A stretch of 28,243 nucleotides of DNA from a virus. Positions within the stretch are counted from its first letter, which is position 1; each line of letters opens with the position of its first letter. Both the position numbers and the translations under genes were made by a program. The stretch covers positions 1 through 28,243 of the IMG/VR virus record IMGVR_UViG_3300027730_000112. One strand, given 5' to 3'. Below the pieces are notes generated by a model that searched no databases, was not told the DNA's origin, and was given only the letters and a program-made list of their open reading frames with translations. Below are positions 5,733 through 28,243 of the stretch, one piece after another.

Positions 5733-7397
5733 TTAGTTTATATTACTTCCTCTACCTAAATCTCTATTGCTCTCATCTCTCCAATCATCAGTACTTTCAA
5801 GAGCAGACATGTGTTTAGATAATGCTTTCTCTAGAAAGTCTCCGTAAGTAAGTTTTTGATCTGCTATTGCACCATCAGAAGTTATCAACATACCAGCACC
5901 AGAACAAGCATTTTCAAGAGCTAGACGAATAACTTTAGTAGGGTCAACTACTGTTTTTGGTATATCTAATACTACACCAGCGTTTTTCTGTATTCTTTCA
6001 AATGGAGCTTTTAATGCTGTATACAGAATAGAGTCTTTTCCTAATATCTTTGCTATTTCTGCCAGTGTTTGACCTCCACCTTTAACATATCCTTCTTGTT
6101 GAGCCACTTTAGCTGCTGATACAGCATCTTTAAGTTTTTCTTTAAGATATGCTCTTTCACTTTCAGTTTGAGCACCTACACGAATGATACCAACACCAGA
6201 AGCCAAAGAAGCCACTCGTCTTTTTAGTTTTTCTTGAAACATTACATCTTTCTCAAGTTCTATTTGTTTCTTTAAAACTTCTATTCTGTCTTTTACATCT
6301 CCTTTACCACCTATTAGATTCACTTCATCTTCAGTAACAGATATTTTTTTGGCAAATCCCAGAGATTCAGTTCTAACACTTTGCATTTGTATACCTAAAT
6401 TTTTATCTATGAAAGTAGCACCTACAAAAGTTGACACGTCTTCTAATTCTGATGAAGTTAGGGAGGGAGCTTTAATTGCTAGTATTTCAAACAAAGGATT
6501 GTTAGATGTAATCTTACCTTCTTTTTGCATTCTTGAGGCTACACATTCTCTTGCAAGCATCTCTATAACTCTTTTTGAATATCCTGATTCTCCTTCTGAA
6601 TAACCAGATATAATTATAACTTTTCTTATATTGTTTTTAATCAAATCTTCTAACAAAGGTTTTATTTCGTTTTCATGTTCTATTTTATGATTTGTCACCA
6701 AGATATGTGATTCTTCCCAAATCGCTTCTTTACCATTGGAGGTATTAGCTAAATATGGCGATGCCATTTTTCCTAAAAACCTCATACCTGTTGTCATTTC
6801 TGTTGTTATTCCATACTTTGTAGCCCAGTTATCTTCCACTGATACATAACCATCTATACCTATTTCTCTAAGTAATTTACCAAGAGTTTGTCCATATTCG
6901 AGATTTTCAAGAGAAGTAGATATAATATTATCTAAATCTTTATCTTTGAGTTCTTTTGAAAATTTTGTTTTTAGTATCTCAACCGCTTTGTCTTTTTCTG
7001 ATTGAATATCTCTCCACATTTGCATCGGATTTGATTTTGAACTTCCTAGAAAAGTAGGTTCATTACCTTCTTTAATCATTTTACCTAGACAATGTCTTGC
7101 AATTTCAGATGCAATAACTACTGAGCCAGTAGTACCATCACCAGCTTGTTCTGCTGTTCTTTGAGATACTTCAATAATAGTTTGGGCTGCTAAATCTTCA
7201 ATAGGATCATCTAATACAATTCTACGAGCTATCTCCATACCGTCATTTATAACCCAAGGAGATTTATATTTCATTGGCAATAAACGGTTTCGCCCACTCG
7301 GACCAAGTGTGTCTCCAACCATTTTATCTACAACTTCAATGCCTTTTAAAAACTTTTTTTGAGCCTCAACACCATTAACAATTATTTTCTTCCACAT
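5733..7397 (-). CDS. groEL: phage-encoded GroEL-type chaperonin (HSP60)
   Basis: A 554-residue group I chaperonin, an ATP-driven folding chamber in the cytoplasm. The equatorial ATP site is intact: DTLGPSGRN (29-37), GDGTT (86-90, with Asp 87), and KDAVSAAKVAQQEGYVKGGG ending near 442, whose Asp 424 matches the hydrolysis Asp 398 of the E. coli protein. The distance between these two aspartates is about 26 residues longer than in E. coli, with extra sequence in the intermediate and apical parts. The C-terminus is shorter and lacks the Gly-Gly-Met tail. No GroES gene is visible in the window. Known phage GroELs, such as that of Pseudomonas phage EL, fold virion proteins, and its place upstream of terminase and portal fits a late folding role. 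AAGGAAG before the ATG is one of the few Shine-Dalgarno-like sites here. Confidence 0.93.
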   Translation of the reverse strand: MWKKIIVNGVEAQKKFLKGIEVVDKMVGDTLGPSGRNRLLPMKYKSPWVINDGMEIARRIVLDDPIEDLAAQTIIEVSQRTAEQAGDGTTGSVVIASEIARHCLGKMIKEGNEPTFLGSSKSNPMQMWRDIQSEKDKAVEILKTKFSKELKDKDLDNIISTSLENLEYGQTLGKLLREIGIDGYVSVEDNWATKYGITTEMTTGMRFLGKMASPYLANTSNGKEAIWEESHILVTNHKIEHENEIKPLLEDLIKNNIRKVIIISGYSEGESGYSKRVIEMLARECVASRMQKEGKITSNNPLFEILAIKAPSLTSSELEDVSTFVGATFIDKNLGIQMQSVRTESLGFAKKISVTEDEVNLIGGKGDVKDRIEVLKKQIELEKDVMFQEKLKRRVASLASGVGIIRVGAQTESERAYLKEKLKDAVSAAKVAQQEGYVKGGGQTLAEIAKILGKDSILYTALKAPFERIQKNAGVVLDIPKTVVDPTKVIRLALENACSGAGMLITSDGAIADQKLTYGDFLEKALSKHMSALESTDDWRDESNRDLGRGSNIN

Positions 7398-8256: not shown

Positions 8257-9696
8257 TTATTTTAATTTAAACCCACTAATTTCTTCAAATATTTTACTAT
8301 CAAAATTAGGGAGTTTTTTTATTAATTCCAAATCTTCTTTTGAGGCTTTTGCCAGTGATTCACTAAATGCTTTTTTGTAATCTAGTTTTTTCATGTAACC
8401 ACCTGTATATTTTGCAGTACCTATATTTTCTTTTTCTTCATCTGTCATATCTGAAAATTGTACCCATTTATTCACATTAAAAAATAAACAATTCGGTTTT
8501 TCTGCTTTTTTCCATTTTTTTGTATCACATTCTTTATTAAACACTAATACTTTATCTGGTGTTATTGTATTAAATGAACCTGTGTTCCTGTCACCTGTGT
8601 TCCAATCACCTGTGTTCCTGTTACCTGTGTTGCTGTGACCTGTGTTGCTGTTACCTGTGTTGCTGTGACCTGTGTTCCTGTCACCTGTGTTCCAATCACC
8701 TGTGTTGCTGTGACCTGTGTTCCAGTCACCTGTGTTCCAGTCACCTGTGTTCCTGTCACCCGTGTTCCTGTCACCCGTGTTCCTGTCACCCGTGTTCCAG
8801 TTACCTGTGTTGCTGTTACCTGTGTTGCTGTCACCTGTGTTGCTGTGACCTGTGTTGCTGTTACCTGTGTTGCTTTGACCTGTGTTGCTGTTACCTGTGT
8901 TGCTGTTACCTGTGTTCCTGTCACCCGTGTTCCTGTCACCCGTGTTCCTGTCACCCGTGTTCCTGTCACCCGTGTTCCTGTCACCTGTGTTCCTGTCACC
9001 TGTGTTGCTGTGACCTAGATTATCCAATCCATTATTATTACTTGCTTCCTCTGCGTTTAATATACGAGTTATTCTAATATGATTTGTTACAGATTTTTCT
9101 TGTCCATCTTCGTCTATAACATCACCTTCACTTTCTATTTCTGCTACTACAATATCATTACCGTATAAATAATATGAATACACATTCCCTAAAGACTTAC
9201 AAAAATGAAAACCAGAATGGCATAGACTAATTTCTCCTTTATGGTTAAAGTCCTTACCTAATTCATATTGAAAGCCTCGACATTTAAGTCCTTTTTCAAA
9301 AGCTTTATAACCATATACTTTAGCCCACCCAGCAGGTAAAATAACATTTTTAGGCTTATCGCCTTTAAATATCTTTTTCATTTCATCTTCTGTAAATCCA
9401 GCTATACCACAACCTACTTTTGTAACTAAAAATGTTTTAGTTGGATTTTCTTTTGCATATTCGTATAATTTATTTTTATTAGAATATAGAGATACTTCAG
9501 ATACTTTCTTCATTTTTTTATCTAATGTAGGAAAAGCATACGATTGTCCCATAATACCTTCTCCTATTCCGTTTATTGCACCGAAACTCTCTTGTGCTTG
9601 TTTGGCGGCTCCACCGGCATGATTTCCATTTAGATTAGAGCCGAAAACAAATATTTCATTTTCTTTTAAACTTTCTATTTTTTTTGGTGTTGTCAT
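8257..9696 (-). CDS. macro-like domain, DUF7666-like and pentapeptide-repeat protein
   Basis: A 479-residue protein with three visible parts. Residues 10-125 match the pattern of the A1S_2505-type macro-like phage domain: EIFVFGSNLNGNHAGGAAKQ, GQSYAFPTLD, VTKVGCGIAGF and LPAGWAKVYG. Macro domains bind ADP-ribose or its derivatives. Residues 130-213 (YKAFEKGLKCRGFQYELGKD, SLCHSGFHFCKSL) resemble DUF7666, a domain often attached to pentapeptide repeats in phages. Residues 229-377 are about 29 tandem NTG-x-x pentapeptides, probably a right-handed beta-solenoid. A 100-residue charged tail follows. One could imagine a role in NAD or ADP-ribose based host conflict or DNA mimicry, but the sequence does not prove either. 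Confidence 0.75.
   Translation of the reverse strand: MTTPKKIESLKENEIFVFGSNLNGNHAGGAAKQAQESFGAINGIGEGIMGQSYAFPTLDKKMKKVSEVSLYSNKNKLYEYAKENPTKTFLVTKVGCGIAGFTEDEMKKIFKGDKPKNVILPAGWAKVYGYKAFEKGLKCRGFQYELGKDFNHKGEISLCHSGFHFCKSLGNVYSYYLYGNDIVVAEIESEGDVIDEDGQEKSVTNHIRITRILNAEEASNNNGLDNLGHSNTGDRNTGDRNTGDRNTGDRNTGDRNTGDRNTGNSNTGNSNTGQSNTGNSNTGHSNTGDSNTGNSNTGNWNTGDRNTGDRNTGDRNTGDWNTGDWNTGHSNTGDWNTGDRNTGHSNTGNSNTGHSNTGNRNTGDWNTGDRNTGSFNTITPDKVLVFNKECDTKKWKKAEKPNCLFFNVNKWVQFSDMTDEEKENIGTAKYTGGYMKKLDYKKAFSESLAKASKEDLELIKKLPNFDSKIFEEISGFKLK
8566..9012 (-). repeat. 15-bp tandem repeat array encoding NTGxx pentapeptides
   Basis: About 29 uninterrupted units of 15 bp. The plus-strand core is TGTGTTCCTGTCACC. 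The bases encoding Asn-Thr-Gly are almost invariant, with variation confined to the two following codons (Asp/Asn/His/Gln then Arg/Ser/Trp). Such an array is prone to length change by slippage or recombination without breaking the reading frame. Confidence 0.95.
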
Positions 9697-10129: not shown

Positions 10130-11290
10130 TTATGATTCCATTTTCATATTTATATAATCTTCTATTGTAAGACCACACAATAGGGCTTGCATAGCAGTTG
10201 CGTTTGGATTTTTTTCTGCTTCTTCTGGTGGAACACCCTCAATGAATATTCTTCCAGTGGGACAAGTCATTTTAAGAAACCATATTTTATTCTCCTCTAG
10301 TTCTTTATTTATTTCTTTATTTTTAATAAGGTATAATTCGTTTTTCCTATCATCTTTATGTATTAATATGGCTCCTTCATTAAGAATTGCTTGATGGTTA
10401 TATTTTAATGCAACCGTTCTTCTATCAGATATATCTATTGCCATTATTTCTTTAAATGACATTTTTTCAGATACTACTTTCTCCCATAATTCTTTTTCAA
10501 AATGTACGCCGTCTAAATAGTATAGTTCATAACCGTCTTTAAATGATACAGCTGGAACTTGGTCTGAATGAAGTCTATCATTTTCTCTTTTTAATACAGG
10601 CTTTCTTGAAACTATTGCAATATTAGGTGAATAATATACAGCCCACGCATCTATACACATTTCTATGTAGGCATTTAATTGTTGTGAGTATTTATCTTCA
10701 AGCAACAAACCATTATCAAAATAATATTTCTGATAAATATACCAATGTAGCCATGTCGCCTCATTTAATGAAAATCCAAAATACTTTAATTTGTTGTTAT
10801 AAATGTTGTTATAAATGTTGCTATCAATGTTGCTATCAATGTTGCTACAAATGTTGTTATAAATGTTGTTATAAATGTTGCTATCAATGTTGCTATCAAT
10901 GTTGCTACAAATGTTGTTATAAATGTTGTTATAAATGTTGTTATAAATGTTGTTATAAATGTTGCTACGAATGTTGTTATAAATGTTGCTACAAATGTTG
11001 CTATCAATGTTGTTATAAATGTTGCTACAAATGTTGCTATCAATGTTGCTACAAATGTTGCTCAATTCTAAACCATTGTTTTTAAGAAAATTAATAGCTA
11101 CTTGAACACCAAACATAGAGTCCATTATCCATACTTCTTTTGGTTGTTCTAAACCAACCATTGTGTATAGTTTTTTTATATTTTTCTTTATTTCATCATC
11201 AGTCTGCTCTGTACGAAATATTCTATCTATCCAATATTCTCTATATGGAATAATTGCATCTTTTTGTTTTTTTGTGAGTTGAGTTATCAT
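10130..11290 (-). CDS. DUF6745-like protein with tetrapeptide repeats
   Basis: A 386-residue protein with the layout of the DUF6745 family. The N-terminal segment is LTKKQKDAIIPYREYWIDRI, and the middle and C-terminal part contains AWAVYYSPNIAIVSRKPVLK, RLHSDQVPAVSFKDGYELYY, LDGVHFEKELWEKV and a late TCPTGRIFIEGVPPEEAEKN. Between residues 77 and 166 sits an array of 22 tetrapeptides of the form (S/N)-N-I-(C/D/Y/R). Other members I recall carry a comparable period-4 region (V-x-x-S type). The biochemical function is not known to me. The gene downstream of its neighbour at 11301-11642 follows a pairing I associate with this family. Confidence 0.7.
   Translation of the reverse strand: MITQLTKKQKDAIIPYREYWIDRIFRTEQTDDEIKKNIKKLYTMVGLEQPKEVWIMDSMFGVQVAINFLKNNGLELSNICSNIDSNICSNIYNNIDSNICSNIYNNIRSNIYNNIYNNIYNNIYNNICSNIDSNIDSNIYNNIYNNICSNIDSNIDSNIYNNIYNNKLKYFGFSLNEATWLHWYIYQKYYFDNGLLLEDKYSQQLNAYIEMCIDAWAVYYSPNIAIVSRKPVLKRENDRLHSDQVPAVSFKDGYELYYLDGVHFEKELWEKVVSEKMSFKEIMAIDISDRRTVALKYNHQAILNEGAILIHKDDRKNELYLIKNKEINKELEENKIWFLKMTCPTGRIFIEGVPPEEAEKNPNATAMQALLCGLTIEDYINMKMES
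10793..11062 (-). repeat. 12-bp tandem repeat array encoding xNIx tetrapeptides
   Basis: Twenty-two units of 12 bp, with a typical plus-strand unit AAATGTTGTTAT. Two identical 60-bp blocks (10801-10860 and 10861-10920) show a recent higher-order duplication of five units. The invariant codons encode Asn-Ile. Variation falls on the residues on either side. The reading frame is kept throughout. Confidence 0.95.
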
Positions 11291-17847: not shown

Positions 17848-18096
17848 TTATTTTTGTGCAACAAATGCAACAATTTTTCTTATCAAACCAAATGCTGTTT
17901 CTGCTACACCATAAAATGTATATCCTAGTGTCACTAGAGTACCTATTTGATCTGCAAGACTTGTTATATCACCACTAATAGCTGTATAGCCAAAATAAAC
18001 TGCAAGACCTCCAGCCATTTTTATAAATCCTTCCACTGATTTTGAAAGTTCTTGTGGATTTACTGAAGATGATAAAGCTCCAAATTTCTTTTCCAT
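17848..18096 (-). CDS. holin-like membrane protein
   Basis: An 82-residue protein with a hydrophilic start (MEKKFGALSSSVNPQELSKS) and two hydrophobic segments, roughly 26-42 (MAGGLAVYFGYTAISG) and 48-78 (LADQIGTLVTLGYTFYGVAE and the following FGLIRKIVAFVA). A short positively charged end follows. Size, two-helix topology and position directly after the endolysin gene agree with a phage holin that permeabilises the membrane at lysis. The VNPxxLxxSVxG start is one I associate with similar proteins in Patescibacteria; that link is from memory. Confidence 0.68.
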   Translation of the reverse strand: MEKKFGALSSSVNPQELSKSVEGFIKMAGGLAVYFGYTAISGDITSLADQIGTLVTLGYTFYGVAETAFGLIRKIVAFVAQK

Positions 18097-18128: not shown

Positions 18129-18662
18129 TTATACTACAATTTCATAAATATATGTCTTCAATTTGCGTTTATCTTCAAACTCACGCCTCCATTCTTCGAG
18201 GGTATAATTGCCAGTAAATTTGCCAGCGTTTTTACCAAAAGAATTGTTGCTTGCTATACGTTCGTTAGTTATAAATACACCTACATGTCCGTTCTTACTA
18301 GGTGTCCGAGGAGATACTATTATTCTTCCTTTATTTTGCATATCTACTCTTTTAAATCTTTTATCCATAAATAATTTCATGTCTAAATCTTTGGTAGAGG
18401 CAAGAATAGGGAAATCTGGGAATACTTTTTTAAGTAAAGTAGATATTACTTCAGCACAGGCTACATCATCAGATATTTCATCTTTTGGTGTGGGGTCTAT
18501 ATCAAGAGCTTCTAAACATACTTTTAAAAATTTATCTTCGTGTGTCATAGGTTTTATTTCTATTGGGATATATTCCATTTCCTCAATCTTGCTTCTTTGA
18601 GAAAGTAGCCGAGATAATTCCTCCAACATTCCCCGTAATTTGTTTAATAAGGAGAGCAACAT
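18129..18662 (-). CDS. putative endolysin, Cys/His/Asn peptidase fold
   Basis: A 177-residue protein from the ATG at 18662. It starts with an amphipathic helix (MLLSLLNKLRGMLEELSRLL) that overlaps the protease gene by 80 bases. A second possible start at Met 29 (18578), right after the upstream stop and behind GAGGAA, gives 149 residues. The catalytic part resembles CHAP/NlpC-type wall hydrolases common in Patescibacteria: DDVACAE (Cys 69), NGHVGVF (His 126), IASNNSFGK (Asn 139 or 140), then NYTLEEWR. It would cut peptidoglycan cross-links. The holin-like gene follows 32 bases on. Family and role are pattern-based, but the triad order is convincing. Confidence 0.7.
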   Translation of the reverse strand: MLLSLLNKLRGMLEELSRLLSQRSKIEEMEYIPIEIKPMTHEDKFLKVCLEALDIDPTPKDEISDDVACAEVISTLLKKVFPDFPILASTKDLDMKLFMDKRFKRVDMQNKGRIIVSPRTPSKNGHVGVFITNERIASNNSFGKNAGKFTGNYTLEEWRREFEDKRKLKTYIYEIVV

Positions 18663-20532
18663 GTGATTGTAATAATTTAATTAATAATTTTTGTAGTTTG
18701 TTTACTACACTTTCATCTATCATTTTACCACTTTCTAAAGCTTTTCTAAGCTCATCTGGGGACAAGTCTATGAAGGTAAAAGCACCATTGTATTTTTTAA
18801 TATAATAGTTTGCTTCCTCTCTTGGTAGTACATGTTTACCTTGTTTACCTGCTTGTAAACCTGCGGAGTTTAATAAAATAAGTCCATCTTTATTCCAACC
18901 TATAATAGCTATCATGTGACCAAAACCATCATCAATACCATTAAGGACATAATCGTATATGTTCCAGTGCCAATCTAGTCCCATAACAGCACCTCTTTTT
19001 TCGTCTCTGTATTTCCATAAAGTAGCTCTAACATTGTCATAGTGGTCGTATTTACCTGATATTTCTACATAAGCTTTTTTACGTTGTCCGATAGCTATCT
19101 GATATAAGTCATTTAAGTTAGGGAAGTTTTTTAAATATCGTACTTTATCTTTATCTTTTATAGTAAAAGGAGCAAATACTTTACCTATTGCACCAACTTT
19201 AACATGTCCTTTAAGAGCATATGAAAATGTTTGCCCCCATTCTTCTTCATTTCCTGATAGGCTTTTAGATACTGCAAACGAGTATAAAGGGTCTAGTACA
19301 AAACCTTCTTGAATAGAAGATATCGCACAAGTACTGTAAGCGGAACAGTTATGCACGGCACTATTATTTACTATATAAGTTTTATCATCTTCAACTTCAA
19401 GATTGTACACTGTTCCATTTGGTCTGAATTGTTTTTTCTCTATTTTATTTATTCTTGCGTAAAAATAGTTTTCATCTTCTCCGTAGTTAACTCCTTTATT
19501 TTTATTATAAGACCATTCAAGATAATAGCTCTGTAATCTATCTTTTTTTTCTTTTACTTTATGTAAAAAAGAATGAATATCATTTCTAGCAAGTATTATT
19601 TTTATCTGTTCCAAAAGATTTAAAGAAGTCATGCCAATTACTTTTCTTTTTTTACCCTTTGTTCCATCTCCATCAAAAACTCCCCTCACTATATTCATTT
19701 GCAATTTTGGTTCAATACACATTAATCGTCTGTTTATTCTTTTATGATTACAAATTTTATTACCTAGTTCATGAAAAATTGAAACCCAATTACTTTTATG
19801 AAACGAATTACCACCAGAAATATATACTTTCGTTGTAGTTAGATGTTTATATCTATTTATTGACACTGTTGCACCATATCTTTCCATAACATTTTTTATT
19901 CTATTGGCAAAATTGATTTCTTTATAATGTAAAGAAAATGCAACTCGATATTCGTCAATATGACCCTCTGCTAAATACATACCTAATACCCAAAGAAATT
20001 CGGGGTCTCTTTCATATGCATTCAAAGTTGTATCCCTTATTATGGTTTTTATTTTTGGTTGAACAACAAAATCTCCGACCCTTAAATCCTCGGCTTTTAC
20101 TTCCTCTATTTGTTTTTTTGAAATAAATCCTTTTATACCAGTACTGCCATAGTTTTTTATTCTCCTTTTAATAGCAAAAAAAGGATGACTCGGTGTTGTT
20201 TCTATAGTTCTAAAGTCACCTTTTATATCAATTTTAACACTATTGCCTTGCCATATTCTTTTTAATTTTTTATTAACTCTTCTAACATTTGAATCTTTTG
20301 TTATAACAAATTCTCCTTCTTTTATGTTTTCAATATTTTTGTATGTGAAATCTTCCATCAATACTTTCGTTTTACCATAAAAGCAAAAATCAGTGTCTTC
20401 TTGGTCTTGCACCTCTAAATATTCCAGCATGTATTCTTCTGGCAATTCTTCCAGTTTAGGAAGCGTGATGAGAGCACCTAATTTAATATCTCTCTCGTCT
20501 TTTTTTTCTTGTCTTAATCCACTTGATATCAT
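18583..20532 (-). CDS. papain-family (C1) protease precursor with intein
   Basis: A 649-residue precursor. Residues 1-49 and 396-649 form a C1-type cysteine protease of about 303 residues after splicing. The oxyanion Gln is Gln 44 (VQDQEDTDF), the nucleophile is the Cys in CSAYSTC (396), the His is in FGHMIAIIGW (539), and the Asn is in LLNSAG (555). Gln-to-Cys spacing after splicing is six, as in papain. A hydrophobic helical tail (residues 610-640) follows. Residues 50-395 are an intein. The protease lies between coiled-coil or tail genes and the endolysin; it might cut virion precursors or host surface proteins. There is no signal peptide. Its ATG overlaps the preceding stop (ATGA). Confidence 0.88.
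   Translation of the reverse strand: MISSGLRQEKKDERDIKLGALITLPKLEELPEEYMLEYLEVQDQEDTDFCFYGKTKVLMEDFTYKNIENIKEGEFVITKDSNVRRVNKKLKRIWQGNSVKIDIKGDFRTIETTPSHPFFAIKRRIKNYGSTGIKGFISKKQIEEVKAEDLRVGDFVVQPKIKTIIRDTTLNAYERDPEFLWVLGMYLAEGHIDEYRVAFSLHYKEINFANRIKNVMERYGATVSINRYKHLTTTKVYISGGNSFHKSNWVSIFHELGNKICNHKRINRRLMCIEPKLQMNIVRGVFDGDGTKGKKRKVIGMTSLNLLEQIKIILARNDIHSFLHKVKEKKDRLQSYYLEWSYNKNKGVNYGEDENYFYARINKIEKKQFRPNGTVYNLEVEDDKTYIVNNSAVHNCSAYSTCAISSIQEGFVLDPLYSFAVSKSLSGNEEEWGQTFSYALKGHVKVGAIGKVFAPFTIKDKDKVRYLKNFPNLNDLYQIAIGQRKKAYVEISGKYDHYDNVRATLWKYRDEKRGAVMGLDWHWNIYDYVLNGIDDGFGHMIAIIGWNKDGLILLNSAGLQAGKQGKHVLPREEANYYIKKYNGAFTFIDLSPDELRKALESGKMIDESVVNKLQKLLIKLLQSHVALLIKQITGNVGGIISATFSKKQD
19348..20385 (-). 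other. intein with LAGLIDADG homing endonuclease
   Basis: A 346-residue intein (residues 50-395 of the precursor). Block A begins at Cys 50 (CFYGKTKVLMEDF), block B has the T-x-x-H pattern in TTPSHPFF (His 116), block F is YNLEVEDDKTYIVNN, and block G ends in VHN (His 394, Asn 395) followed by Cys 396. Two LAGLIDADG-like motifs, LGMYLAEGH (183-191) and RGVFDGDG (283-290), indicate a homing endonuclease that may still be active. All residues for splicing are present. The insertion is directly before the protease's catalytic Cys. Confidence 0.93.
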
Positions 20533-20948
20533 TTTGATAATATATTAAATATTAAATACTTTAATCCAGCACCAATAATTGCTATTCCTCCAAATATACC
20601 AGCTACCCATGCAATAAATGTTTTTGTACCACGAGCAGTAATCAATATTTGGTGTACATCTTTCATATCGCCTAACATTTTTTCAAGTGAATCAGTTAAA
20701 TATTGTATAACTTTTTGTTGTTCTTTATTTACTTCTATTTGTGCAGAAAGTCCATCAGTAAGGTCTTTTTGTATTTTATCTATTTTTCCATTAACAACTA
20801 TTTTTATAGTTGACTCCACTGTATTTTTCACTTCTTGTTTATGTTCAAAAAACAAGTCATTAAAGGTATGTATTAGGCTTTCACGACTTTGGTTCCTCAT
20901 ATCTCTTTCTACATCCATTGCTATTTTTTTTACTTGTTTTGTGTCCAT
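20529..20948 (-). CDS. coiled-coil protein with C-terminal membrane helix
   Basis: I start at the ATG 20948 (139 residues); an in-frame TTG at 20969 would overlap the preceding gene. The first hundred residues are charged and helical (MDTKQVKKIAMDVERDMRNQ, with VNGKIDKIQKDLTDGL as a turn). Residues near 108-134, TFIAWVAGIFGGIAIIGAG and the following hydrophobics, form a membrane helix. This layout recalls small phage membrane proteins placed between tail genes and lysis genes (sometimes called holin- or spanin-like). The actual role is not shown. Confidence 0.6.
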   Translation of the reverse strand: MDTKQVKKIAMDVERDMRNQSRESLIHTFNDLFFEHKQEVKNTVESTIKIVVNGKIDKIQKDLTDGLSAQIEVNKEQQKVIQYLTDSLEKMLGDMKDVHQILITARGTKTFIAWVAGIFGGIAIIGAGLKYLIFNILSK

Positions 20949-20955
20949 GCCTAGT

Positions 20956-21321
20956 TTACTTACTCTCAATAATTTCTGGCTCTACAGCCTCGATAACATC
21001 TGCTTTTACTTCTTCTTTTACTTCTGGCACTTCTGTTTCAATCACAGCTATTTTTTCTTTTTTCTTATCAATTACTTCTTGCAATTTAGTAATCTCTGCA
21101 TTCAATTGGTCGATAGGGTTAACATATGAGGCTATAAGCTCATCTCGTCTAATAGTAAGGTCTGACTTTTGTATTTCAAGTTGTTCTATTTCTCTTTTAA
21201 AACCAGAAAGGTCAATCAAAGACACTTTAATTTCCTCTGGTACTACATATTCAAGAGTTTTAATTTCTTCTTTGATAAGTCCGCTTTCGTATAGTGTGTA
21301 TTTTACTTCTTCTGTTTTCAT
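20956..21321 (-). CDS. coiled-coil phage protein
   Basis: A 121-residue acidic protein. The middle (DLSGFKREIEQLEIQKSDLT and LNAEITKLQEVIDKKKEKIA) is a long heptad-like coiled coil, and the last 25 residues are Glu/Val/Pro-rich. The N-terminal TLYESGLIKEEIKTLEYVVP resembles the start of short phage tail-associated proteins. There is no membrane segment. It is cotranscribed with the S74-type protein gene two bases away and may be a tail accessory or chaperone. Unknown function. Confidence 0.58.
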   Translation of the reverse strand: MKTEEVKYTLYESGLIKEEIKTLEYVVPEEIKVSLIDLSGFKREIEQLEIQKSDLTIRRDELIASYVNPIDQLNAEITKLQEVIDKKKEKIAVIETEVPEVKEEVKADVIEAVEPEIIESK

Positions 21322-21322
21322 A

Positions 21323-22747
21323 TTATTTGTTTTTTAATTTAATAATTTCTCGTTGTTGATATATAAGCACTAATCCAAATATACCAAATACAATCCATTT
21401 CCAATTTTCTTCTGCACTTCTTTTTCCTTGTCCTACATATTGAGGTAATGCTTCTATTTTTGTATCAAGTTCTTGAATAGCCTTTGAGTTAATAGCAATT
21501 AAAGCTGGTAAATCTATTGAACGAGCAATACCTTCTTTGTCGTATCCATCTGCAAGATGAGAATCTATTTCTTGTAAAGATTGTGCTCCAAAACCATAGC
21601 GAAGTCTGTCTGTATTATCATTGTAGTAAAAAGAGCTTGGTTGTATTTTATTTACCATTTCAAGAGCTGAAAAAGTAAGTTTCTTAAGTGGTGTTTTTTG
21701 TTCTTCGTCAGATACAGTACAGGTAAGAGCGGCATTTTCTGTAACTTCTTTGGTTGTTGCATTAATACATACTGAATTTGGTGTTCCTGTAGATCCAGTA
21801 AGACCATTTACTGCCATAGTTCCTGTGACTGATAAAGTTTTCCAAGGTGTAGTTGTCCCCACTCCCACATATCCATTTCTATCAACAATCAATAATGTTG
21901 CAGTAGAAGAACCAATGATAAGTGGTGTCGCTCCCGCAGCTGCATTGATTGAGAGAGTGCCAAATGCAGTAGTAGTTCCAATACCCAAATTACCAACAGT
22001 ATCTATTCGTGCTCTTTCTGCACCACTGATTCTAAACACATGTGCCGCTGCATCAAAGTTGGTGTTTGCATAAGCTGCGGTGTTTCTGTTATATGTTTGG
22101 AAGGTAACCGCACCAATGGCAGGTATTATTTCAGACGCAGCGGTGCCGCTATTACCACCTACTACAAGTTTTGCAAGAGGATTCGCTGTCCCAATACCAA
22201 CATTTCCATTATTCAACAAAGTTATTATAGGAGTTGTTGTCGCATATACATCAGTACTTGTGCCTATATACAAGTTTCCACTTCTGTTAGATAGAAGCAT
22301 GTGTTTTGCATCTGTACTTCCTGCGGAATCTGATATAGCAAAGTCAGGGCGTGTGCCTGCAACTTGAAGTCTCCATGCAGGTGTCGTTGTTCCAATACCC
22401 ACATTCGCACCTGTGTAAGTGACAAAAGAAGAAAGAGAAAGACCACTGTCTTTGATTAGCTTACCTGTTGTGCCGTCGAATAGGGCGACGTTAGAGTCAA
22501 CGGATGAAACGGGTCCGACGACATCACCAGAGCCACAAGTGCCTAGTGTATAAGTAAAAGGTGAGTTATTAGATATAATAAGACATTTATTTAAATCTCC
22601 TGCTGTTGCAGTACCTATGCCAGTGCCTCCTTGAGTTGCGGTTATGATTCTTGGATTGCTTCCTAAAGTAAAATCTTGACCAAACAAACTTGATATCAAG
22701 ATTAAACCTATCGCTACAATTTCTTTAATGTTATTTAAAAATTCCAT
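21323..22747 (-). CDS. S74-type fibre protein with hydrophobic ends
   Basis: A 474-residue fibre-like protein. After a hydrophobic N-terminus (VAIGLILISSLFG) comes a beta-rich body with four GIGTTTP-type repeats (near 117, 183, 254 and 294), then an S74 intramolecular-chaperone domain: SDEEQK (346-351, Ser and Lys of the cleavage dyad), LEMVNKIQPSSFYYND, RYGFGAQSLQEID and LPALIAINSKAIQEL. A C-terminal membrane helix (WIVFGIFGLVLIYQQ, 451-465) follows, which is unusual for a virion fibre. S74 domains trimerise the fibre and are then cut off, so the helix could be released with the chaperone. A host-surface role is an alternative. Confidence 0.8.
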   Translation of the reverse strand: MEFLNNIKEIVAIGLILISSLFGQDFTLGSNPRIITATQGGTGIGTATAGDLNKCLIISNNSPFTYTLGTCGSGDVVGPVSSVDSNVALFDGTTGKLIKDSGLSLSSFVTYTGANVGIGTTTPAWRLQVAGTRPDFAISDSAGSTDAKHMLLSNRSGNLYIGTSTDVYATTTPIITLLNNGNVGIGTANPLAKLVVGGNSGTAASEIIPAIGAVTFQTYNRNTAAYANTNFDAAAHVFRISGAERARIDTVGNLGIGTTTAFGTLSINAAAGATPLIIGSSTATLLIVDRNGYVGVGTTTPWKTLSVTGTMAVNGLTGSTGTPNSVCINATTKEVTENAALTCTVSDEEQKTPLKKLTFSALEMVNKIQPSSFYYNDNTDRLRYGFGAQSLQEIDSHLADGYDKEGIARSIDLPALIAINSKAIQELDTKIEALPQYVGQGKRSAEENWKWIVFGIFGLVLIYQQREIIKLKNK

Positions 22748-27072: not shown

Positions 27073-28243
27073 TTATCTAATTATTTCTCCATAAGAATAT
27101 GCGGCTCTATATCGACAATCTCCTGCATCAGCACCATTTAATTGCATTGTCATTCGAAGATTTAAGGGGTTGTTTGTATTTAATGAATAAATTGCTGTGG
27201 TAGTAGCTACCCTATCTGCAATACCAACATTAACAGCACCAAAAACATTATTCGTTGAAGATGCTATATCCATATTAACCACTTGTGAAGTTCCACTGAT
27301 ATCTAAAACTGAAAATTTTAATCTCAAAAATGATTCATCTCCTACAAATAAAGTTGAACTAGCAACAACCGTACTTCCGAGATAAAGTTTTACATAATTT
27401 GTAGTACAAGAATTAGTTTGAACATTTAATGGTTCGAATACAGATTCAACATTTAATTTTCCGTCTTTTAATAAAGCTGGTTTAAGATTTAATCCCCACA
27501 TTGTTATTTCTGTATTTCCACTTGTTGTTTGGGTTGTAGTAGTCGCAAATACTTTTTGTATATTAGTAAAATAATCTGATGTTGTAGTAGATACATTAAG
27601 TTGTGTTATTGTAGTTGATGCTAAATAAGCATTTCCTGTATTGGTTATTTGCGTCGTAGATGCTTGTTGATTGTAACTTGTTAAGTCCAAAAAGAAATCA
27701 GTATCGAAGTAAAATTCAGTTGGAGATTTTATTAATCCTAATATTTTTGTTACTGTTCCTGCCGTTGTTGAAGTTGCACCTGCTGTGTTAGAAAGATAGA
27801 CAAAATTTCCTGTAGTTCCTCCTATGTTATTAGTATCATAACCCTTTATCATTACTCCATTACTAATAATATTACCATCTGTTCCTGAGCCTTGAGCTAC
27901 CCCTAATAATACTCTTTGGGTTGTTGAAGCAAAATCAGCATCAGCTTTTCTCCATTCACCCTCAAATCTATTAAAATAAACAATTGTGCCTGTTGCTATT
28001 GTTTCTCCAGCATTACCAGCTACTACAATAGAATCATAAGAAACTGCACCACCACTTACTATTCCATCAACATAAGATTTTGTTGCAAAATGTGGACCAC
28101 TTAAAGGAGTTAATCCAGACCAATAAGCACTAATAGTCTCGTTATTTCTTTTCACAGCATATTCTGCAAACAAACAAGGAGAGTCTGACAAAATAAATAC
28201 TGATTGAGCAGCATGTCTCAAAGCTAACGTACTAGAAGCCACA
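27073..28243 (-). CDS. partial virion or fibre protein, Thr/Ser-rich
   Basis: Open to the right edge, so the N-terminus is missing; 389 codons are visible. The visible part is beta-rich and full of Ser/Thr runs (QASTTQITNTGNAYLASTTI, NVSTTTSDYF), with a SYVDGIVSGGAVSYDSIVVA stretch and a final GDCRYRAAYSYGEIIR. The SYVDG start, after an ATKSYVDG-type junction, is a phrase common in phage tail-fibre and baseplate proteins. Repeated ASTTT patterns are like those in the S74 protein. It heads the visible part of the late operon. Confidence 0.6.
   Translation of the reverse strand, partial: VASSTLALRHAAQSVFILSDSPCLFAEYAVKRNNETISAYWSGLTPLSGPHFATKSYVDGIVSGGAVSYDSIVVAGNAGETIATGTIVYFNRFEGEWRKADADFASTTQRVLLGVAQGSGTDGNIISNGVMIKGYDTNNIGGTTGNFVYLSNTAGATSTTAGTVTKILGLIKSPTEFYFDTDFFLDLTSYNQQASTTQITNTGNAYLASTTITQLNVSTTTSDYFTNIQKVFATTTTQTTSGNTEITMWGLNLKPALLKDGKLNVESVFEPLNVQTNSCTTNYVKLYLGSTVVASSTLFVGDESFLRLKFSVLDISGTSQVVNMDIASSTNNVFGAVNVGIADRVATTTAIYSLNTNNPLNLRMTMQLNGADAGDCRYRAAYSYGEIIR

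Follow-up and report, generated by a model that had tools for sequence, protein, structure and literature searches.

The stretch of DNA analysed here (the window; 28,243 nucleotides) is a 28-kb phage record, from a virus of bacteria, and it carries a gene in which an intein lies directly before the codon of the predicted catalytic cysteine of a C1 papain-like peptidase. Our main reading, to which we give a probability of roughly 0.8, is that a class 1 homing intein took this site, that its splicing yields the peptidase, and that inactivity of the precursor is a by-product of the location rather than an evolved switch. The reading builds on the anatomy of the gene, the empty sites in homologs, the fold together with the alignment of the triad, and the conservation of the insertion site; from these it predicts splicing, endonuclease activity and peptidase activity, as well as a precursor in which the latter is absent. 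The features of the gene are as follows.

18583..20532, minus strand: gene for the intein-containing papain-like peptidase precursor, 649 aa; open frame with an ATG start
20386..20532, minus strand: N-extein, residues 1-49, with the oxyanion-hole Gln44 (codon 20401-20403)
19348..20385, minus strand: intein, residues 50-395 (346 aa), starting with Cys50; PF14890 at 2e-13
20185-20196, minus strand: intein block B, TPSH, residues 113-116
19963..19989, minus strand: LAGLIDADG motif 1, VLGMYLAEG, residues 182-190
19663..19689, minus strand: LAGLIDADG motif 2, VRGVFDGDG, residues 282-290; Pfam LAGLIDADG_3
19369-19416, minus strand: intein block F, VYNLEVED
19348-19353, minus strand: intein end, His394-Asn395
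18586..19347, minus strand: C-extein, residues 396-649
19345..19347, minus strand: Cys396, splicing +1 nucleophile and predicted protease nucleophile; Cys in 9/9 family members, aligned with the catalytic Cys of cathepsin S
18916..18918, minus strand: His539, predicted catalytic His (GHMIAIIGW); His in 8/9 members, aligned with the cathepsin His
18868..18870, minus strand: Asn555, predicted third residue of the triad (LLNSAG); Asn in 5/9 members, aligned with the cathepsin Asn

An earlier note on this DNA had described a 346-residue intein that ends in His-Asn and is followed by Cys396, and the translation of the open reading frame and the Pfam profiles confirm this description. As judged from the sequence, Cys396 is both the +1 nucleophile for splicing and, by homology, the nucleophile of the protease. 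The spliced product would be 303 aa long, with a putative triad Cys50-His193-Asn209 in addition to Gln44. The extein has two cysteines, at positions 50 and 56 of the spliced numbering; Cys56, the only other candidate, is not conserved in the family alignment and was rejected as the catalytic residue.

The sequence hallmarks of a class 1 intein are present: Cys50, TPSH at 113-116, His394-Asn395, and Cys396 at +1. The precursor matches the Pfam profiles Intein_splicing (1.7e-12) and LAGLIDADG_3 (5.3e-12), well outside what chance would give, and for the intein alone the match to PF14890 spans intein residues 10-346 and is accompanied by PF14528 (LAGLIDADG_3, 1.1e-12). Alignments to phage inteins of thymidylate synthase, ribonucleotide reductase, DNA methyltransferase and other proteins start exactly at residue 50, and several of them stop at residues 396-401. 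Eight aligned phage inteins all share Cys1, the block B Thr and His, and the final Asn, and the phage-intein profile matches the solved structures of PI-PkoII (1e-26) and PI-SceI (6e-15). Acidic residues are kept in both LAGLIDADG motifs (LAEG, DGDG), which along with the profile match agrees with the earlier view that both motifs look usable, as a prediction from sequence. The G+C content is 27.8% in the intein versus 33.8% in the extein.

A second IMG/VR contig of 34.3 kb carries the identical locus (100% over 18,076 nt) and has different ends, and the two contigs may belong to one phage population. Since the locus recurs in this way, a simple assembly error at the intein junctions is unlikely, and the insert was rejected as an artefact of this kind. 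One intein-bearing member of the family was found, identical in the two assemblies; the pattern HN|CxA[YF]...QE, used to look for another intein at the equivalent site, returned only the same phage, and the intein profile held no stretch conserved enough to scan the sequence collection with.

The host protein is assigned, through its homologs and its modelled fold, to the C1 papain-like proteins, its own Pfam match being absent. The spliced 303-residue extein has no credible match in Pfam, PHROG or the PDB, and none among 50,697 phage records. As single queries, precursor and spliced extein recovered only the same phage, with no match in phage records or genome contigs; likewise, the homolog profile had no match in the genome contigs, nor did two homologs used as queries against the phage records. 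Relatives were reached by DNA patterns. A first one, QDQxxxDFCxA, gave two chance matches; a degenerate one, DFCxA[YF]xxxA...QE, which combines the Cys with a later QE pair, led to three intein-less relatives, and a profile built from these brought the number of intein-less IMG/VR homologs to eight (L012-L019; 30-41% identity). At the insertion point, every one of the eight has an uninterrupted Gln-x(5-6)-Cys, and the proposal that splicing would restore a Gln-x5-Cys spacing from Gln44 is supported. Gln44, Asp48 and the Cys are invariant in the family, as is the Ser after the triad Asn (9/9 members), and the insert of the window lies exactly between Phe49 and Cys396. No other intein was found in the eight homolog records.

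The family profile aligns with cathepsins at 4e-5 when four sequences are used and at 6e-8 with nine, and Cys, His and Asn fall on their catalytic counterparts. The Pfam profile PF00112 (Peptidase_C1) matches three of the nine members (best 2.8e-7), the window extein being without a match, and a PHROG 'peptidase' match is present in four of nine. An AlphaFold2 model of one homolog (P0002, from L012; pLDDT 87, pTM 0.86) has its central helix begin at the Cys (residue 57); its best solved match is xylellain (PDB 3ois; Z 25.5, 238 aligned residues, rmsd 2.6), papain-family enzymes fill the list, and phage proteins annotated as Peptidase_C1 are among the viral matches. In the model of the precursor, the two extein halves jointly match xylellain with Z 24.0 over 232 residues, which points to the papain fold for the window protein itself. 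It is important to point out that the intein part of this model is of low confidence and carries no structural statement on the intein, and that AlphaFold, guided by the homologs, packs the extein halves around the insert, an arrangement that speaks neither for nor against an inactive precursor.

These comparisons uphold what had been proposed from the letters of the DNA, namely that the host is a papain-type protease (homolog profile, cathepsin alignment and fold match) and that the +1 Cys is its catalytic Cys (homology, including the alignment to cathepsin S). The two findings that would have spoken against it were looked for: intein-less homologs carry the Cys right at the insertion point and not elsewhere, and in the homolog model the central helix begins with this Cys, which does not lie off the active site. 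The objection that the C1 assignment was made by eye only was rejected in view of the cathepsin profile alignments and the fold match to xylellain.

One alternative, improbable as it is, holds that the host is a papain-fold protein without peptidase activity, with a binding or structural role at the virion end and a 'catalytic' Cys that is merely historical. The triad Asn is replaced by Leu or Gln in four of the nine members (L015, L016, L017 and L019), and L015 has Asp in place of the His; since Asn or even His is absent in some relatives, some members may have lost or altered the activity and may fall outside the canonical peptidases. The gene that follows the peptidase gene in L015, L016 and L018, which is similar to an adaptor or structural gene of the SU10 type, fits a structural role as well. 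Against this, Gln, Cys and the Ser after the Asn are invariant in all nine members, and the window member keeps the whole triad, with Gln, Cys, His and Asn in the C1 register, unlike L015.

In one homolog (L019:3408-4240), an HNH-like ORF (CxxC...HPHHI by eye, without a Pfam match) interrupts the 3′ part of the peptidase gene, and a direct duplication of 143 nt from that part flanks it. Together with the intein in the window, this means that the gene family has been struck by mobile elements at least twice.

The neighbours of the peptidase gene, on the same strand, are the following.

20529..20969, minus strand: upstream gene, 146 aa, one predicted C-terminal membrane segment; 4-nt overlap with the start of the peptidase gene
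18129..18662, minus strand: downstream gene, 177 aa, possibly an NlpC/P60-type cysteine peptidase or amidase (weak); 80-nt overlap with the peptidase gene
17848..18096, minus strand: 82-aa gene, possibly holin-like (weak), with a counterpart in L149

A small membrane protein occupies the upstream slot in six of the other loci covered (L012-L015, L017 and L149), and the one of L013 is clearly a holin (3e-19), encoded directly upstream of the peptidase gene. The peptidase gene of L017 is followed by an M23 gene, by one with weak holin likeness and by an SLT gene. The related phage L149 shares the neighbouring genes of the window: its relative of the 177-aa protein is 68% identical and itself reaches only 0.13 to NlpC/P60, and its counterpart of the 82-aa gene, at the same position, matches Holin_SPP1 at 0.0064, below the cut-off; a simple membrane-segment scan found no membrane segment in the 82-aa protein. 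Lysis neighbours are clear in L013 and L017 and weak in the window, and overall the peptidase probably serves in a module for lysis or for the virion end. The peptidase slot of L149 (L149:3232-4092) is taken by an intein-less protein of 286 aa without detectable similarity; by eye, it has motifs with Gln, Cys and His, and its C-terminal tail looks similar.

Several other genes of the window, all on the minus strand, deserve mention. A GroEL-type chaperonin (5733-7397; PHROG 5725, 8e-72) is about 30% identical to other phage GroELs, and its presence seems unusual given the size of this phage genome. Two proteins are rich in five-residue repeats, one with a long run of NTGxx and an N-terminus that is macro-domain-like by eye (8257-9696), the other with many NIxxN-type repeats (10130-11290; NIYNNICSNIDSNI). 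A tail-fibre-like protein with an S74 chaperone and 'GIGTTTP' repeats is encoded at 21323-22747 and 27073-28242, and presumably resembles proteins of Patescibacteria and their phages.

The position of the intein coincides with the best-conserved part of the host gene. When conservation is ranked as mean pairwise identity over the nine members, the segment centred on the insertion point comes first among 299 five-residue segments and first among 297 seven-residue segments; wider segments rank second (nine residues) and 10 to 12 (eleven to fifteen residues), which is still high on the list. Two things would keep the intein there: no other site of the gene is as conserved, and imprecise loss would destroy the catalytic Cys. 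The earlier note had left a choice between splicing as a switch and simple targeting of a conserved site, and it is the second that is favoured by the ranking, by the lower G+C of the intein and by the like placement before catalytic cysteines in other phage enzymes, the support for the switch being its location. The switch would mean that slow or conditional splicing is kept to delay the peptidase, for example until lysis, or to sense redox conditions through the cysteines of the splicing and active sites. The catalytic Cys is indeed tied up until splicing, L013 and L017 offer a lysis-like setting in which timing would matter, and conditional splicing and the tuning of phage inteins have been put forward in the literature (PMC5050341). 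However, the eight closest homologs and the related phage L149 all manage without an intein, the endonuclease motifs look intact as in a mobile element, and the residues of canonical splicing, the penultimate His among them, are kept as in an efficient splicer. An evolved switch is hence doubtful, and a homing intein that took the most conserved spot of the gene is the simpler account.

According to this homing account, the intein would fold after translation, and Cys50 with the His of TPSH would form the N-terminal thioester. Cys396 would then take over the N-extein to give a branched thioester, Asn395 would cyclise with the help of His394 and free the intein, and an S-to-N shift would join Phe49 to Cys396 in the 303-residue peptidase, whose papain active site would fold or be completed once splicing is done. 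In the DNA, alleles without the intein would be cut at the insertion stretch by its LAGLIDADG part, and the intein would spread by homing. The unspliced peptidase, which the earlier note said must be inactive, is most likely so, as the chemistry suggests: Cys396, which opens the active-site helix, is peptide-bonded to the intein Asn and has a 346-residue domain in front of it, which makes activity of the precursor unlikely.

A twist on this scheme, which the earlier note does not raise and which we consider about as doubtful as the switch, is that the papain halves assemble before excision, as the precursor model allows, and that His539 and Gln44 either activate Cys396 for splicing or set the N-extein free by hydrolysis of the thioester; intein and peptidase would then have a single active site in common, with coupled kinetics. 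Chemically, the branched thioester that would form on Cys396 is the same species as the acyl-enzyme of papain, with the N-extein as acyl group, and catalysis by the extein could therefore help or spoil splicing. The chemistry of methyltransferase and thymidylate synthase hosts differs, so that only in a cysteine peptidase could the His and the oxyanion hole act on the branched intermediate. Poor or absent splicing, with a gene product that is dead or cleaved at its N-terminal side, is very unlikely: the Asp of block F is Asn here (VYNLEVED), at a position that matters in some inteins, but Asn is usual there in related phage inteins, all other splicing residues are kept, and the extein is undecayed, with triad and invariant residues retained in an open frame.

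If the main reading is correct, the active-site inteins of phages extend from enzymes of nucleic acids and nucleotides to a cysteine peptidase, probably one of lysis or the virion end. The precursor would be a natural zymogen-like protein with self-splicing as its activating step, and it would provide a test case in which the splicing intermediate and the enzyme intermediate are one chemical species on one residue. The family described here also aids the annotation of phage papain-like proteins, the window member being invisible to Pfam and PHROGs.

Placement before an active-site Cys is typical of phage inteins. Related phage inteins have the junctions FP|CQ in two C5 methyltransferases, TP|CH in thymidylate synthase and S|CFLIQVED in ribonucleotide reductase, and a sample of 120 phage-intein stretches contains more CQ-x-FS junctions of the methyltransferase kind. 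In these hosts the +1 Cys is the catalytic nucleophile (methyltransferase and thymidylate synthase) or a redox-active Cys (ribonucleotide reductase). The inteins of the C5-cytosine DNA methyltransferases of Lactobacillus phage Nyseid (AUV59832) and MT835477 are likewise of the LAGLIDADG type, start with Cys, end in His-Asn and lie directly before the catalytic Cys (GFP|CQ); they are 312-319 aa long and about 25% identical to the intein of the window, and their host modifies DNA by a chemistry other than acyl transfer. Thymidylate synthase of Aeromonas phage PS1 (QDJ96702) has a 337-aa intein at LTP|CH, again before the catalytic Cys, in a host of nucleotide metabolism.

Insertion at active centres is a theme of mycobacteriophage inteins, with splicing generating the active site (Kelley et al. 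2016, PMC5050341), and a review reports it for inteins generally (PMC7765530). The mycobacteriophage hosts, in the part of that study we drew on, are mainly nucleic-acid or nucleotide enzymes, terminases and RDFs, with no cysteine peptidase among them (PMC5050341). The earlier note knew of no intein in this kind of host protein, and no such report was found in the open-access literature, within which the kind of host is accordingly new. Inteins inside chloroplast ClpP (PMC5784728 and a reference therein) also interrupt a peptidase, though a serine peptidase of another fold. Xylellain and other C1 papains, finally, share with the window protein the fold and the Gln...Cys...His...Asn arrangement, and they differ from it in being free of an intein, in an identity of about 20% and in the contexts in which they occur.
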